Source: a bacterium (GTDB lineage Bacteria; AUK180). From it: DNA of 6,099 bases. Position 1 is the stretch's first letter; each line of letters opens with the position of its first letter. The stretch lies in contig JAUXGM010000135.1 in NCBI GenBank assembly GCA_030622125.1, positions 1 to 6,099 on the forward strand, in the 5' to 3' direction. The notes below the pieces were generated by a model. The model was given only the letters and a program-made list of their open reading frames with translations. It had not been told where the DNA came from and made no database searches. A program made the translations under genes and the position numbers. Shown piece after piece: positions 97 through 5,543 of this stretch.

Positions 97-588
97 ATGA
101 GCAAGCAAATTTCAAACGGGGTGAAACTATCACATTGGCTTGAGGATGGAAATCTGAGAATGATTGATGTTTCGGATAAGAGCCCGTCAAAACGAGAGGC
201 AAAAGCATCCGGTAAAATTCTGATAAAAAGAAAAACAATAAAACTAATAGAATCGGGAAAAACTCCAAAAGGAGATATTTTTACAACAGCAAAAATTGCA
301 GGAATTAATGCCGTTAAGCAGACACAGTTATTGATACCTTTGTGCCATAATCTCAATATAACACATTGCGACATAAATTTCGAAATGAAAAACAACTCTA
401 TAGAAGTAAAAACAACTGTCAAAACACATAACCGAACAGGCGTTGAAATGGAGGCTTTAACGGGTACCGCCGTAGCCCTCCTAACAATTTACGATATGTT
501 AAAACCCGTTGACAAATCAATGATAATAACGGAAATTAAACTTCTTGAAAAAACCGGAGGGAAAAGTGGGCATTACAAAAGAGAATAA
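97..588 (+). CDS. moaC: MoaC, cyclic pyranopterin monophosphate synthase
   Basis: This 163-residue protein has the usual full length of MoaC. MoaC converts the MoaA product (3',8-cyclo-7,8-dihydro-GTP) to cyclic pyranopterin monophosphate in the cytoplasm, the first precursor of the molybdenum cofactor. Family motifs are present in order: IDVSDKSPSKREA (23-35), PKGDIFTTAKIAGI (57-70), LIPLCHNL (79-86), RTGVEMEALT (113-122), YDMLKPVDKSM (132-142) and the C-terminal LLEKTGGKSGH (149-159). Compared with E. coli MoaC, the catalytic Lys51, Asp128 and Lys131 correspond to K58, D133 and K136. The start is supported by AAAGGAGG at 84-91. The gene overlaps the following mogA-like gene by 23 bases. No moaA, moaD, moaE or moeA is in the window, so these must lie elsewhere if the pathway is complete. 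Confidence 0.96.
   Translation: MSKQISNGVKLSHWLEDGNLRMIDVSDKSPSKREAKASGKILIKRKTIKLIESGKTPKGDIFTTAKIAGINAVKQTQLLIPLCHNLNITHCDINFEMKNNSIEVKTTVKTHNRTGVEMEALTGTAVALLTIYDMLKPVDKSMIITEIKLLEKTGGKSGHYKRE
556..560 (+). promoter_or_regulatory. ribosome binding site that sets the mogA start at GTG 566
   Basis: GGAGG inside the end of moaC lies five bases before GTG 566. It makes that codon a better start than the in-frame TTG at 545, which has no comparable site upstream. Confidence 0.7.
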
Positions 589-1081
589 AATAAAAGTAGC
601 GATTTTAACAGTTTCAACAAGCTGTTTCAGGAAAGAAAGAGAGGATAAAAGTGGAAAGGTCCTTGAGGAAATCTGTAAGGATTTCGGTTTTAAAATTTTA
701 AAAAAAGAGATTGTTCCCGATGATAAAAATCTTATCCGTAATAAATTAAAATCCTGTTGTGATAAATTGAAAGCTGATGTCGTTCTTACAACCGGAGGCA
801 CAGGATTAGGTCCTTTTGATATAACACCGGAGGCAACTTTTGAAATAAGCGAAAGAATCGTTCCCGGAATTTCTGAATTAATGAGAATCGAAGGAATCAA
901 AAAAACAAAAAGAGCGTCTCTTTCAAGGGGTATTTCCGGAATAAGAGGCAAAACCCTGATTGTAAATCTACCGGGTTCTCCAGAAGGTGCTATTGAGTCA
1001 ATAAATGCAATTTTAGAGATCATTCCGCACGCGATTAAAATGATACATGGAGGCGGTCACGATTTATTGGAAGAAAATTGA
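566..1081 (+). CDS. mogA: MogA/MoaB-family molybdopterin adenylyltransferase
   Basis: With the GTG start at 566 this is a 171-residue protein; an in-frame TTG at 545 would add seven residues, but GGAGG at 556-560 favours 566. The MoCF/MogA fold is recognisable from KVAILTVSTS (10-19), VPDD (50-53), TTGGTGLGPFDITPEAT (75-91) and the C-terminal VNLPGSPEGA stretch. D52 and D85 match E. coli MogA Asp49 and Asp82, needed for catalysis. The enzyme activates molybdopterin with ATP to adenylyl-molybdopterin before metal insertion. Family members named MoaB are close relatives, so mogA versus moaB is a matter of naming. The start lies inside moaC, 23 bases overlapping, and the stop TGA shares one base with the next ATG. 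MoaC-MoaB fused proteins are known; here the two are separate but overlapping. Confidence 0.9.
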   Translation: MGITKENKIKVAILTVSTSCFRKEREDKSGKVLEEICKDFGFKILKKEIVPDDKNLIRNKLKSCCDKLKADVVLTTGGTGLGPFDITPEATFEISERIVPGISELMRIEGIKKTKRASLSRGISGIRGKTLIVNLPGSPEGAIESINAILEIIPHAIKMIHGGGHDLLEEN

Positions 1082-2082
1082 TGAAAAAAAATACTAAATT
1101 GCTGGTTATGTTTATTATCATCGGCGGATTATTTTGTTGTGCAAAAAAAGAGGAAAAATCAATAAAAATTGCTGTTGAGTTTGTTGATCATGCCTCTTCC
1201 GCATACATTGCAAAGGCAAAGGGATGGTTTGAAAAGGCGGGACTGAAAATTGAGGCGTTTGATAATTACATTACGGGAATGGCTCTTGCTGCTGCTCTTA
1301 CGAGGGGAGACATTGATGCTGCTTACATCTGTATGATTCCCGCAATTTCTGCCTATGCCAATGGCAAAGTAAAGATAAAAGTTGTCTGCGGAACTCATAA
1401 ATACGGTTACGGTTTAATTGTAGATCCGGAAAAAGTAAAAAATGTTTCCGATTTAATGAAGCTCGAGGTAAGAGTCGCCTGTTCGAGGGAAGGTTCACCC
1501 TTGGATTGCCTCTTGAACAAGATGATCGAAGGCTACGGTCTTGACGGAAAAGAATTGAAAAAGAAAATCTTGAGAATGCCGCCGCCAAAAGTTTTACTTG
1601 CCCTTCAAATGGGTCGGATTGATGCAGGTTTTTGCTGCGAGCAGTTTCCAACAATGGGAGAGAGAATGGGATTTAAAGAACTTCTGTCTGCTCAAGACCT
1701 TTGGACCGAAATGCAGGGAAGTGTTCTCGTTGTAAAGGATGAACTTATAGAAAAACATCCCGATATTGTAAAAAAACTTGTCGAAATTACGGAAAAAGGA
1801 ATTGAATATATCAATAAATATCCCGATGAGTCCTCTTTGATCGTTGCACAGGCACTCACGGTTGCCGGGGAAAAAATTCTACCTGTAAAAGTTAGCAAAA
1901 TTGCGGAAAAACTTCAGATAAAACCGGATGATATTCAAAAATCACTTACAAAAAAAATGATAAACACCATTGACATAGATATTGAAGGTATTCAGCAAGA
2001 AATTGACTATATGGCTGAACTTGGTTACATAAAAAAAACATTTGAAGCAACGGAATTATTGGAGTTAAAATTTCTAAAATGA
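1081..2082 (+). CDS. NMT1/TauA/SsuA-type ABC substrate-binding lipoprotein
   Basis: This 333-residue protein is the extracytoplasmic binding component of the importer that follows. Residues 1-20 form a signal sequence (MKKN, then a hydrophobic stretch) ending in GGLFCC, a loose lipobox in which C19 or C20 would be lipidated. The mature part begins with SIKIAVEFVDHASSAYIAKAK, the start of a type 2 periplasmic-binding fold, followed by a GWFEKAGL motif, a GDIDAAY segment (76-82) and a MGRIDAGFCCEQF segment (177-189), typical of the TauA/SsuA/NMT1 superfamily. The mature chain has cysteines at 84, 103, 134, 143, 185 and 186, unusual for a periplasmic binding protein. The ligand cannot be read from sequence; nitrate/sulfonate/taurine/pyrimidine-precursor binders share this fold, and the operon points to a molybdenum-cofactor-related ligand. 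ATG 1081, preceded by GGAAG at 1069-1073, is preferred over TTG 1078. Confidence 0.85.
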   Translation: MKKNTKLLVMFIIIGGLFCCAKKEEKSIKIAVEFVDHASSAYIAKAKGWFEKAGLKIEAFDNYITGMALAAALTRGDIDAAYICMIPAISAYANGKVKIKVVCGTHKYGYGLIVDPEKVKNVSDLMKLEVRVACSREGSPLDCLLNKMIEGYGLDGKELKKKILRMPPPKVLLALQMGRIDAGFCCEQFPTMGERMGFKELLSAQDLWTEMQGSVLVVKDELIEKHPDIVKKLVEITEKGIEYINKYPDESSLIVAQALTVAGEKILPVKVSKIAEKLQIKPDDIQKSLTKKMINTIDIDIEGIQQEIDYMAELGYIKKTFEATELLELKFLK

Positions 2083-2828
2083 AAAAGACAAAAATTTCTG
2101 AATTTATCCCTCTTATCTTTCTTATAATAATCTGGGAGATTGTAGGGAGAATCGGATTTATATCAAAAGGACTATTCCCCCCTTTTTCAGAAGTTTTGAT
2201 CATCGCTTTTTCATTCATCAAAAATGGTATTTTGATTGAAAATTTTCTAAAAAGTTTTATCAGAGTTTTAATCGGCTTTTTTCTTGGTTCCCTTTTAGGA
2301 ATATTTACAGGAATCATAATGGGCTGGAATAAATACATTGAAAGATCATTAAGTCCGATAATAAGCATCCTTTATCCGATACCTGCTCTCGGCTGGCTAC
2401 CGATTTTGATGTTATGGATCGGGATAAATGAATTGCTTCCAATCACGATAATTTTTATCTGTTCGTTTTTCCCGATTTGTTACAACACAATTTGTGGAAT
2501 TAGAAGTGTAGATAAGAATTACATTCGCGTTGCCCGGACACTCGGCGCATCAAAAATAAGGATACTCAGAACAATTGTTTTTCCACTTGCGCTTCCAAAC
2601 ATTTTTACGGGTCTGCGGCTTGAAGCGGGGATGGCATGGAGAGTCATAATTGCCGCGGAAATGGTCGCAATTCCGACAGGAATTGGAGCTTTAATGATGA
2701 AAGCCGAAAGTTTAATAAGAATGGATATCATAATTTTGTGTCTTTTAATTCTCTCCATTATGACATTTCTGTTTGAAAAGTTTTTTGTTTATCTTGAAAG
2801 TAAAACAACAAAATGGAAATTGAAATAA
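2079..2828 (+). CDS. ABC transporter permease, SsuC/TauC-like
   Basis: This 249-residue integral membrane protein belongs to the BPD_transp_1 family and forms the channel through the inner membrane for the substrate delivered by the upstream binding protein. It has about six hydrophobic segments, the first at residues 9-22, and the conserved cytoplasmic EAA loop at about 150-173, including RVARTLGASKIRILRT and FPLALP, which docks the ATPase. The region LYPIPALGWLPILMLWIG (98-115) is typical of the SsuC/TauC/NrtB branch. The gene begins with an ATGA overlap with the binding-protein stop, and GGAG at 2061-2064 is a rather distant ribosome binding site, consistent with coupled translation. The length matches the family. 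Confidence 0.92.
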   Translation: MKKTKISEFIPLIFLIIIWEIVGRIGFISKGLFPPFSEVLIIAFSFIKNGILIENFLKSFIRVLIGFFLGSLLGIFTGIIMGWNKYIERSLSPIISILYPIPALGWLPILMLWIGINELLPITIIFICSFFPICYNTICGIRSVDKNYIRVARTLGASKIRILRTIVFPLALPNIFTGLRLEAGMAWRVIIAAEMVAIPTGIGALMMKAESLIRMDIIILCLLILSIMTFLFEKFFVYLESKTTKWKLK

Positions 2829-3853
2829 AAAATCTGTCAAACTTTATTATGAGAAATATAAATCTCAAGGTAAAAAATGCAGAATTTCTTGTTCTCTTAG
2901 GTCCAAATGGCGCTGGTAAAACAACACTTCTCAATTCAATTGCGGGCTTAATTCCTTATGAAGGAAACATTTTTTTTAATAATCAAAATATCGACGAAAT
3001 TCCATCAGGGAAAAGAGAAATTGGCTATCTTTTTCAGGATCTTTTCCTCTTTCCGCATCTGACGGTTTTTGAAAATCTTGCCTATGGTCTGAAAAGTCAA
3101 AATCCCAAAAAAAACATTGATGGAAAAGTAGAAAAACTTTTGTTTACTTTAAATCTTTTGGAAATGAAAAATCGTTATCCTTCTGAGTTAAGTGGTGGAG
3201 AAAGGCAGAAAGTTGCGCTAGCAAGGGCACTTGCGACAGAACCATCTGTTTTACTGCTTGATGAACCGTTCAAAAGCATTGACCTGCACACATCAAAGTA
3301 CCTGCGTAATGACCTAAAAAACCTACAGAAAAAACTGCAGATTACAACAATTTATGTAACCCACAATCTGTTTGAAGCTGAAGAAATGGCGGACCGCCTT
3401 GTGGTGCTTATTGATGGAAAAATTTGCGAGATTGGAACAGTAAACGAGATATTCTTTAATTCTAAAAATAAGGATGTACTCCGTTTTATTGGCGAGCCAA
3501 ATATTTTGAGTGTTGATTCCTATAAAATTTTAGAGTCGGGGCTGGTTGAGGCAAACTGTAACGGAATGAAGATCATTGCCCCGTATGAAGGTAAAAAAAT
3601 CAAAAAACTGGCAATTCTTCCACAGGACATTTATATTTCTCTTTTTGAAATTATAGGGCCCAAATTTAACATGTTTCAAGGGAAAGTCATTGACATTCTG
3701 CCTGATTCCTCAATCGTAAGAGTAAAAATCTCTGTTGAAAAAAATATTTTTCTATCGGAAGTATCACGAGATATTTTTAATGACCTCAATATAAAAACAG
3801 GAGATAAGATCAATTTAATGCTAAAATTACGGTGGATAAAGACTTATGAATAA
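2813..3853 (+). CDS. ABC transporter ATP-binding protein with TOBE/Mop-like C-terminal domain
   Basis: This 346-residue ATPase powers the importer. The nucleotide-binding domain has Walker A GPNGAGKT (30-37), Q-loop Q75, signature LSGGERQ (126-132), Walker B VLLLDEP (146-152), and H-loop H184. SsuB/TauB ATPases usually end near residue 250; this one continues about 100 residues. The extension starts at FIGEPNIL (225-232), has AILPQDIYIS, similar to the RPED motif of TOBE domains, and ends with a NMFQGKV...LSEVSRDIF...IKTGDKINL pattern that resembles the TOBE/Mop modules of ModC and WtpC ATPases, which sense oxyanions. That similarity is by eye. The start overlaps the permease end by 16 bases and gives the normal N-terminus (MEIEIKNLS) of such ATPases. 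The gene ends by overlapping the DUF364-like gene by eight bases. Confidence 0.9.
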   Translation: MEIEIKNLSNFIMRNINLKVKNAEFLVLLGPNGAGKTTLLNSIAGLIPYEGNIFFNNQNIDEIPSGKREIGYLFQDLFLFPHLTVFENLAYGLKSQNPKKNIDGKVEKLLFTLNLLEMKNRYPSELSGGERQKVALARALATEPSVLLLDEPFKSIDLHTSKYLRNDLKNLQKKLQITTIYVTHNLFEAEEMADRLVVLIDGKICEIGTVNEIFFNSKNKDVLRFIGEPNILSVDSYKILESGLVEANCNGMKIIAPYEGKKIKKLAILPQDIYISLFEIIGPKFNMFQGKVIDILPDSSIVRVKISVEKNIFLSEVSRDIFNDLNIKTGDKINLMLKLRWIKTYE

Positions 3854-4580
3854 AATGAAAATATTAGAGATAACAAGGAATAAAATGAAAGATCTTGTTG
3901 CAAAATATAATATTCCGGATGAAAAAGTTGTCATAACCGCAAAAGTACTGACTGCGGAAGAAGCAATTGGAAATCCCGAACATGATGATTATCCTTTAAT
4001 AAAAGGAAAAGAGCGGTTGATGCAGTCGCAATTTCAGGGATCAAAAGGTGTTGCTTTTTCAGATATGTTCGGGAATTTTTCGGCGAATTTGAGTGAAATT
4101 CTAAATATGGAATTAAAAAATAATTTTAAAAAAGCAATCTTTGTTGCAACAGTTAATGCTGTCTTAAGAAAATTAAATTCGATTGAGAGAACGGAACATT
4201 GCAAAAATAATGATATGATTATTTGTGCATCAAGGGTCTGTGAATTTATCAAAGAAAGATTTGGAAGCCCGAAGATTTTTTTGTGTGGGCTTCAACCTCG
4301 CTTTGCGGAAAAACTTTCATCTGAATTTGAAATAAAAATAACCGATATGGATAAGGCAAATATTGGAAAAGAATTTAATGAAGCAAAGGTTATGGGAATT
4401 GAAACGACTGATGAATGTCTCAATTGGTGCAACCTAATTTTTGCCAGCGGTTCAACTTTTGTAAATGATACTGCTGAGAATCTCATAAAAAGTAGGAAAA
4501 ATATTGTTTTCTACGGAGTTACAGGGGCAGGACCAACATATCTATTGAATCTCAAAAGATATTGCCCTTGTGGTAGATAA
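3846..4580 (+). CDS. DUF364-type putative heavy-metal chelation protein
   Basis: This 244-residue cytoplasmic protein fits the DUF4213/DUF364 architecture: an N-terminal enolase-like part (about 1-95) with a GNPEHDDYPLIKGKE segment and KGVAFSDMFGNFSA (67-80), then a Rossmann-like part with ATVNAVLRKLN (101-111), a TEHCKNND segment (116-123), KIFLCGL (143-149), FASGSTFVNDT (199-209) and FYGVTGAGPTYLL (222-234). The crystal structure of a Desulfitobacterium member led to the proposal of a role in heavy-metal chelation; no reaction is established. Eight cysteines occur in the Rossmann-like half: 119, 127, 132, 147, 191, 195, 240 and 242, the last two in the tail CPCGR. As last gene of a MoaC-MogA-ABC operon it may handle the imported metal, oxyanion or cofactor; this is inference. 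M4 at 3855 is an alternative start. The family assignment is from motif recall. Confidence 0.75.
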   Translation: MNKMKILEITRNKMKDLVAKYNIPDEKVVITAKVLTAEEAIGNPEHDDYPLIKGKERLMQSQFQGSKGVAFSDMFGNFSANLSEILNMELKNNFKKAIFVATVNAVLRKLNSIERTEHCKNNDMIICASRVCEFIKERFGSPKIFLCGLQPRFAEKLSSEFEIKITDMDKANIGKEFNEAKVMGIETTDECLNWCNLIFASGSTFVNDTAENLIKSRKNIVFYGVTGAGPTYLLNLKRYCPCGR

Positions 4581-4835: not shown

Positions 4836-5543
4836 ATGAAGAAAAGGATACAAATTTTATTTATTGCTTTAATTCTTTTATGCAGTGTCCATTCTATCTA
4901 TTCAGCAGATAGTGTTGACGGAATTTTCAATAAATTAGAAGGGAATACGGCACAGATGCAGGATATGGTTGCGGATATAAATCAGACTGTTTTTATGATG
5001 GGTCAAAATATTGTTACTATCGGCAAGACCTATATGAAAAAGCCCGATCTTATGAAGATGGAAATTACATCGCCTCAGAAGCAGACAATGATTATCAACG
5101 CAAAAGAGAAAATGATGTATATCAAGATGGAAAACGGTCAGGTGATGAAGCAAAAGATGCCGAATACAGAAAATTATTCAAATATAAGCTTTAAATTTGA
5201 TAAAAAAAACCTCAAAAAGAATTTTAATATCAGGATATTGGAAGATAAAGGCAACTTGGCAACGATTGAACTATTACCAAAAGATGGGAAAAACACAATG
5301 AAGTTGATCCTTACAATCGATACATCAAAAGGTGTTATAACAAAGACAGTTACAAAAGATGAAAAGATCGGACTTGATATGACGGTTGAATTTTCTGATT
5401 TTGAGAAGATAAATAATAAATATTGGATGGCAAAAACGATCATCACAACAACAAACACGGGCGGAAATAATATAAAGACCATCGTTAAATATTCAAATAT
5501 CAAGATAAATCAGAAGTTAAAAGATGAAGAATTCAAGATATAA
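4836..5543 (+). CDS. LolA-like outer-membrane lipoprotein carrier / sorting protein
   Basis: This 235-residue exported protein has a clear signal peptide (KKR, then a hydrophobic core at 7-18, probable cleavage after A24 in IYSA-D). The mature part looks like the LolA fold, an incomplete beta barrel that carries lipoproteins or lipids through the periplasm: an N-terminal helix (GIFNKLEGNTAQMQDM, 29-44), the YMKKPDLMKMEI strand pair (66-77), IINAKEKMMYIKM (86-98), and a C-terminal half of beta strands ending LKDEEFKI. The length is usual for LolA-like proteins. Oddly, 13 methionines lie between residues 41 and 108, all in the N-terminal half. GGGAGG at 4825-4830 is a good ribosome binding site, under a near-consensus promoter. 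A putative outer-membrane protein follows. LolA is the best guess; a broader LolA-fold protein of unknown cargo is also possible. Confidence 0.75.
   Translation: MKKRIQILFIALILLCSVHSIYSADSVDGIFNKLEGNTAQMQDMVADINQTVFMMGQNIVTIGKTYMKKPDLMKMEITSPQKQTMIINAKEKMMYIKMENGQVMKQKMPNTENYSNISFKFDKKNLKKNFNIRILEDKGNLATIELLPKDGKNTMKLILTIDTSKGVITKTVTKDEKIGLDMTVEFSDFEKINNKYWMAKTIITTTNTGGNNIKTIVKYSNIKINQKLKDEEFKI

Follow-up and report, generated by a model that had tools for sequence, protein, structure and literature searches.

A candidate molybdenum ABC importer family with an NMT1/SsuA-type binding protein and a DUF364 partner

This report concerns a stretch of 6,099 nucleotides of bacterial DNA (hereafter the window), which is one entire contig (C7) from a metagenome bin of 2.08 Mb that is 96% complete, and in particular the ATP-binding cassette (ABC) transporter genes at 1081–3853 together with the DUF364 gene at 3846–4580. 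Judged from the genes alone, these very probably specify a high-affinity molybdenum importer of a new family, the binding protein of which is best read as derived from the sulfonate/taurine/nitrate branch; no description of a molybdenum importer of the NMT1/SsuA type was found in the open-access literature.

The window and the conserved transporter unit

The original prediction described six overlapping genes, and these were all confirmed as open reading frames (ORFs) on the + strand spanning 97–4580, neighbours overlapping by 1–23 nt. They are listed here together with one further gene that lies outside the operon unit.

97–588, + strand: moaC (cyclic pyranopterin monophosphate synthase, molybdopterin pathway); TIGR00581, 195.5 bits against a cut-off of 141.5
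566–1081, + strand: mogA/moaB-type gene (molybdopterin adenylyltransferase family); PF00994 MoCF_biosynth, 103.7 bits
1081–2082, + strand: substrate-binding lipoprotein of the NMT1/SsuA/TauA fold, molybdenum-linked clade; NMT1_2, 76.5 bits; SsuA_fam, 112.7 bits (cut-off 163.5)
2079–2828, + strand: permease; BPD_transp_1, 96.3 bits; nearest named families SaoP/TauC/SsuC, all under cut-off
2813–3853, + strand: ATPase with C-terminal TOBE domain; ABC_tran, 129.3 bits; TOBE, 22.5 bits
3846–4580, + strand: DUF364 protein (putative cytosolic partner); DUF364, 27.8 bits (cut-off 23), fold confirmed over the full length
4836–5543: LolA-like outer-membrane lipoprotein carrier gene, after a 255-base gap

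The mogA-type ORF has a GTG start preceded by GGAGG, and its product is not distinguishable as MogA or MoaB, both equivalogs scoring under cut-off. Because the window is the whole contig, just 96 bases are available upstream of the operon.

As to how far this arrangement is conserved, the binding protein was not found in any of the six same-phylum relatives (seven genomes of the phylum being compared), and a first search for relatives of the DUF364 protein turned up the binding protein, permease, ATPase and DUF364 together in three unrelated genomes. A wider scan, in which an alignment of four binding proteins was run against one genome per GTDB species, yielded 42 further loci in many phyla: going by record titles, the hosts are Caldiserica, Elusimicrobia, Methylomirabilis, Deltaproteobacteria, Dehalococcoidia, Aerophobetes, Auribacterota, Omnitrophota, Clostridia, Bacteroidales, Spirochaetes, Sulfurimonas/Sulfurospirillaceae and one Desulfurococcales archaeon, every one of them a metagenome-assembled genome and their completeness unequal. 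A permease is present at at least 38 of the 42, an ATPase at most and DUF364 at at least 21, these counts being lower bounds because contig ends cut several of the loci. At some loci the ATPase is replaced by another or lacks the TOBE domain, while DUF364 is evidently not obligatory, since L080, L081, L086, L103, L111 and L118 have room for it yet show none.

The moaC–mogA pair, on the other hand, adjoins the transporter at none of the 42 related loci, and the six-gene set was met in the window only; one relative, L113, has a MogA-type gene some 2 kb upstream and a MobA-like gene as well. The predicted six-gene operon therefore holds for this contig but was rejected as a conserved entity: what is conserved is binding protein plus permease (plus ATPase), usually with DUF364, and moaC–mogA is a local partner. 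For the transporter with DUF364 the neighbourhood is not unique to the window genome. The suggestion of a transport system that is unlike the ModA, WtpA or TupA types and tied to molybdenum is supported, and is extended by the wide recurrence of the system.

Molybdenum genes, regulatory sites and host genomes

The weight of the case rests on the recurring neighbours being mostly molybdenum genes, the kind of gene differing with the clade of the binding protein. The transporter is surrounded by nifD, nifK, nifE, nifN, nifB and nifV in Auribacterota, Omnitrophota, one Clostridia bin and several Deltaproteobacteria; the NifD of L088 scores 656.2 bits against the Mo-nitrogenase cut-off of 653.6, and falls far under the vanadium and iron-only cut-offs. 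Elsewhere, a ModE-domain gene adjoins the transporter (5 loci), ModD directly follows the ATPase (L107; 182.9 bits, cut-off 178.9), modA or modB genes lie nearby (L102, L108 and L111), or there are MobA- and MoeA-type genes (L084 and L086) or an FmdE gene (L103, L104, L108 and L118). When a single set of 17 marker queries was used for test and control loci alike, at least one molybdenum marker was found at 25 of 43 loci (the window counted), whereas none of the 20 control loci, which surround ordinary SsuA/NMT1-type binding proteins, had one. In the binding-protein tree 11 members form a nif clade, 13 (the window among them) a cofactor/ModE clade and 10 an FmdE/ModE/modABC clade.

A second line of evidence, independent of how genes are named, comes from the 300 bases upstream of the 42 operons, which were searched for the ModE box CGTTATA-N10-TATAACG with up to 2 mismatches. 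Such palindromes occur at 17 sites upstream of 12 of the operons; the remaining 400 kb of those loci contain just 3, and dinucleotide shuffles gave only 0.02 loci with one; L080, in the window's own clade, has a perfect site. In spacing and letters the palindromes agree with the published E. coli ModE consensus, ATCGNTATATA-N6-TATATANCGAT (PMC545781).

The host genomes also bear on the question. ModA (TIGR01256) had no match at E ≤ 1e-3 in 21 of 42 genomes, including the window genome (G000), and was above cut-off in just 12, compared with a published survey in which 88.8% of molybdenum-using bacteria had ModABC (PMC6147048). In G000, G386, G387, G388, G397, G399 and G409 the searches found no TupB, and no PF13531 protein apart from the binding protein of this family (the last three give weak PF13531 matches, but by position these are to that binding protein, and they were left out of the ModA and WtpA counts). 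G000 encodes three molybdenum hydroxylases (MoCoBD_1) alongside one AFOR-type enzyme; in the genomes closest to it by binding-protein gene (G386–388) the hydroxylases number three to four, and AFOR and PF00384 enzymes are absent. Many hosts have several AFOR_C (tungsten-type) oxidoreductases. In G397, G405 and G408 nifD is above cut-off and PF00384, AFOR_C and MoCoBD_1 are all unmatched, making nitrogenase the sole molybdenum enzyme of those looked for; nitrogenase without the tested molybdenum/tungsten-pterin enzyme families is the strongest argument here for a cargo of molybdenum and not of pterin.

All this said, there are several points that weigh on the other side. The Fisher p of 2.5e-6 for the marker comparison is not to be taken strictly, because the queries had been drawn from the test loci themselves and only a few genomes supplied the controls, and 18 of the 43 loci lack any molybdenum marker, several of these being short contigs. 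In the window itself the direct evidence for molybdenum is moaC–mogA only, and no ModE box is present in its leader, of which there are only 96 bases. Absence of ModA, WtpA and TupB is weak evidence for any one genome, because these are draft bins of unequal completeness. Finally, four genomes of the same phylum (G001, G003, G004 and G005) have hydroxylases and, by the searches used, no PF13531 protein, TupB or binding protein of this family, so that other, unknown routes for molybdenum must exist.

Two further kinds of neighbour recur. Genes for outer-membrane barrels (alginate_exp, OprD and Porin_O_P) lie at or near the binding protein in L082, L093, L097, L107 and L117 (cluster c7), and likewise at 6699–7916 of L111 and 3–539 of L078, the hosts being Gram-negative; the barrels could possibly form a dedicated outer-membrane pore for the cargo. 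At L081, L083, L087 and L089 (cluster c9) a gene for a PadR-type regulator, possibly a different metal sensor, stands directly upstream of the transporter operon, where other loci have ModE.

The binding protein and the DUF364 protein

The binding protein has a lipoprotein-like N-terminus (Cys19-Cys20) and an AlphaFold 2 (AF2) model with a predicted local distance difference test (pLDDT) score of 92.5, for which the fold matches are a zinc-bound S. aureus protein (3un6, Z 31.1), TauA (6ssy, 30.6), NrtA (2g29, 30.0) and SsuA (3e4r, 29.2). It thus shares its fold (Z about 28–31) with the binding proteins of SsuABC, TauABC, NrtABC and CmpABC, whose permease family is also that of the window, but it differs from them in having invariant C84, H106 and M211 and in lying among molybdenum genes instead of sulfonate or nitrate genes. 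In tests against curated families neither SsuA_fam (112.7 of 163.5) nor taurine_ABC_bnd (36.5 of 304) was passed. On the question of grouping raised in the original prediction, then, the protein does fall within the sulfonate/taurine/nitrate fold group, although as a separate clade with pocket residues of its own.

Ten residues are invariant in 40 of 40 binding proteins, namely E33, H37, C84, H106, G109, Y110, R165, E187, M211 and S214. Conservation of E33 and H37 is partly selected for, because they lie within one of the search patterns of the scan; the other pattern covers the stretch 60–67, and C84, H106, R165, E187, M211 and S214 are outside both. In the five nearest outgroup proteins H37 is retained, but positions 84, 106 and 211 are occupied by Gly, Asn and His respectively, so that C84 with H106 is seen in all clade members shown and in 0 of 5 nearest outgroups (TauA also has Gly at the position aligned to C84); the best reading of these alignments is that the Cys84/His106 pair is diagnostic for the molybdenum-linked clade. 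In the AF2 model the invariant residues are mostly near strand ends and helix starts, the places at which ligands are held in this fold, and from the model we infer that they would line the pocket and bind molybdenum. The pockets of ModA are hydrogen-bonding in character, compared with which a Cys/His/His/Glu/Met set is softer, and such a set would suit a molybdenum species bearing sulfur.

Comparison with the established molybdenum transporters shows a mixture of likeness and difference: the system would work in the manner of ModABC but, on the features compared, does not belong to it. With ModABC the system shares a binding protein, a permease and often a TOBE ATPase, as well as, in part of the family, ModE boxes and modE or modD neighbours; against this stand the NMT1/SsuA/TauA-type binding protein (not SBP_bac_11/ModA), the DUF364 partner and the occurrence in genomes lacking modA. 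The window's binding protein scores 17.1 bits with PF13531 (cut-off 25) and TIGR01256 is not among its matches, while its permease reaches 32.4 bits with the ModB model TIGR02141 against a cut-off of 182.6. The ATPase is nearest WtpC (295.5 bits, under the cut-off of 440), but there is no WtpA-type (PF13531) binding protein and the permease reaches only 23.3 of 340 bits against WtpB. TupB (NF041773) is not among the permease matches and has no match in G000. There is also some likeness to SAO (the selenocysteine-assisted organometal system), since among named families the permease scores best with SaoP (157.8 bits) and the binding protein second-best with SaoX (81.7 bits); both are far off their cut-offs (295 and 300 respectively), the neighbours here are molybdenum genes, and SaoL, SaoC and SaoT were absent from the neighbour gene families looked at.

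The DUF364 protein (AF2 model pLDDT 92.1) matches solved DUF364 structures over its full length, with the same two-domain fold (3npg, Z 17.2; 3l5o, Z 15.2), and its 27.8 bits pass the PF04016 gathering score of 23. Invariant across 32 relatives are T116-x-H118-C119, C127, C240, N104 and N207, of which the TxHC...C...C set lies outside the conserved residues listed for 3l5o. A link of DUF364 to molybdate, tungstate and iron transport genes, with a suggested chelating role, was described in the structure paper of 2010 and so is not new here (PMC2954201). Going by linkage and conserved residues, the DUF364 partner probably serves in molybdenum handling. As a strict molybdenum marker, however, DUF364 was rejected, molybdenum markers being present at only 3 of 18 loci of more distant relatives, though at two others, L059 and L061, FeMo-cofactor-type genes adjoin it; the wider subfamily occurs also in places without a molybdenum link, and a second DUF364 gene in the window genome (contig C58) sits among unrelated genes. 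A search of phage families with DUF364 gave no match.

As separate observations, DUF364 proteins of the HC type lie beside a PF02579 (FeMo-cofactor type) gene and a NUBPL ATPase at 4866–7906 of L059 (with a radical SAM gene in addition) and 6505–8609 of L061, possibly another metal-cluster assembly group. They also stand directly beside a canonical DUF4213-DUF364 protein at 5354–6858 of L084, 7207–8834 of L062 and 6049–7571 of L066, and the two kinds of DUF364 protein may work together in pairs.

Proposed mechanism, alternatives and minor features

From these genes we infer the direction of import, the cargo species, the role of DUF364 and the regulation by ModE, as follows. The lipoprotein would capture a molybdenum species, be it molybdate, thiomolybdate or some other complex, outside the membrane in the cleft that carries the invariant Cys/His/His/Glu/Met set (going by the predicted fold), and the permease and ATPase would carry it inside, as their families suggest. 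By analogy with ModC, molybdate may be sensed by the TOBE domain that many of the ATPases carry, and transport shut off in response. Linkage and conservation suggest that DUF364 would then bind, convert or pass on the molybdenum by way of its His-Cys/Cys/Cys set, for delivery to molybdopterin enzymes in the window's clade (with moaC and mogA co-expressed in the case of the window itself) and to nitrogenase in another clade, the gene linkage in both cases being observed. In part of the family ModE would regulate the operon, given the boxes and the modE neighbours.

A more specific version, in keeping with the metal complex allowed for in the original prediction but tentative and less likely than not, is that the cargo is thiomolybdate (MoS4 2- or mixed MoO(4-n)Sn 2-), imported in sulfidic habitats. 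A soft site of Cys84, His37, His106 and Met211 would here replace the ModA-type pocket, and the His-Cys/Cys/Cys set of DUF364 would receive or desulfurise the cargo before insertion into the molybdenum cofactor (Moco) or the iron-molybdenum cofactor (FeMo-co). Molybdate is converted to tetrathiomolybdate in sulfidic medium (PMC10390477), and several hosts, to judge by their isolate names, come from vents, a sulfidic cave, the deep Black Sea or sulfide springs.

It is unlikely, if not wholly implausible, that the system is instead a tungstate importer, or a general importer of molybdenum and tungsten oxyanions akin to WtpABC or TupABC that does not prefer molybdenum. The several AFOR_C oxidoreductases of many hosts and the nearness of the ATPase to WtpC would fit such a function, and the ModE evidence is compatible with it too, ModE responding to both molybdate and tungstate. 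Against it, nif clusters with Mo-type nifD are the setting of an entire clade, G397, G405 and G408 have nifD and no AFOR_C, and the closest hosts, G386–388, have MoCoBD_1 enzymes and again no AFOR_C. A plain importer of sulfonate, taurine or nitrate, lying near molybdenum genes by chance or supplying a substrate to molybdenum enzymes such as nitrate reductase, would account for the SsuA/TauA/NrtA fold group and for SsuA_fam being the best NCBIfam match of the binding protein (under cut-off). It would leave the nif and ModE linkage unexplained, though, and with no molybdenum marker at any of the 20 control loci and pocket residues unlike those of TauA (C84 aligned with Gly) it is highly improbable.

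The original prediction had also allowed for a pterin-like precursor as cargo, so that an importer of pterin, a molybdopterin precursor or some other organic part of the cofactor would work with MoaC and MogA. The overlap of moaC and mogA with each other in the window is in keeping with this, and binders of thiamine precursors (NMT1) and pyrroloquinoline quinone (PQQ) have the same fold; it was moreover once proposed that DUF364 makes a flavin or pterin derivative (PMC2954201). Nevertheless moaC–mogA stands beside no relative, the ModE boxes and the ModE, ModD and modABC neighbours speak against it, and the nif-cluster clade and the three Mo-nitrogenase genomes lacking the tested pterin enzyme families make it the most improbable cargo of those considered. 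What survives of the suggested link to the molybdenum/tungsten cofactor is thus the tie to molybdenum, not one specific to the pterin cofactor.

If the system is indeed a molybdenum importer, it would be a concrete candidate for filling part of a recognised gap, a survey of about 5900 genomes having left 278 molybdenum-using bacteria and 13 archaea without a known molybdenum transporter (PMC6147048). It could feed nitrogenase and other molybdenum enzymes in oxygen-free and often sulfide-rich habitats, in bacteria that lack the standard molybdenum pumps, and would bear on how anaerobes, nitrogen fixers among them, acquire molybdenum where sulfide makes thiomolybdate. Genomes judged unable to import molybdenum may accordingly have been misjudged, and DUF364, unexplained since the 2010 structure, would gain a specific setting.

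There remain some minor features of the window. Searched against Rfam, the window and 13 related loci gave no Moco riboswitch. A possible leader ORF of 18 codons (MNPVSNFEVFLVISNERR) at 37–93 has its own ribosome site and ends 3 bases before the moaC start. On the 3' side of the LolA-like gene a possible outer-membrane protein starts at about 5771 and is truncated by the contig end. Between 5516 and 5790, where the LolA-like gene ends and the next one starts, a repeat of 28 bases around GATGAAAAATTCAAGATATAA occurs three times and there is also an inverted repeat, CCCCATTAGAGA...TCTCTAACGGGG; these look like a small duplication or a dispersed intergenic repeat, and CCCCGTTAG, from the possible leader ORF, reappears inverted in this downstream repeat.

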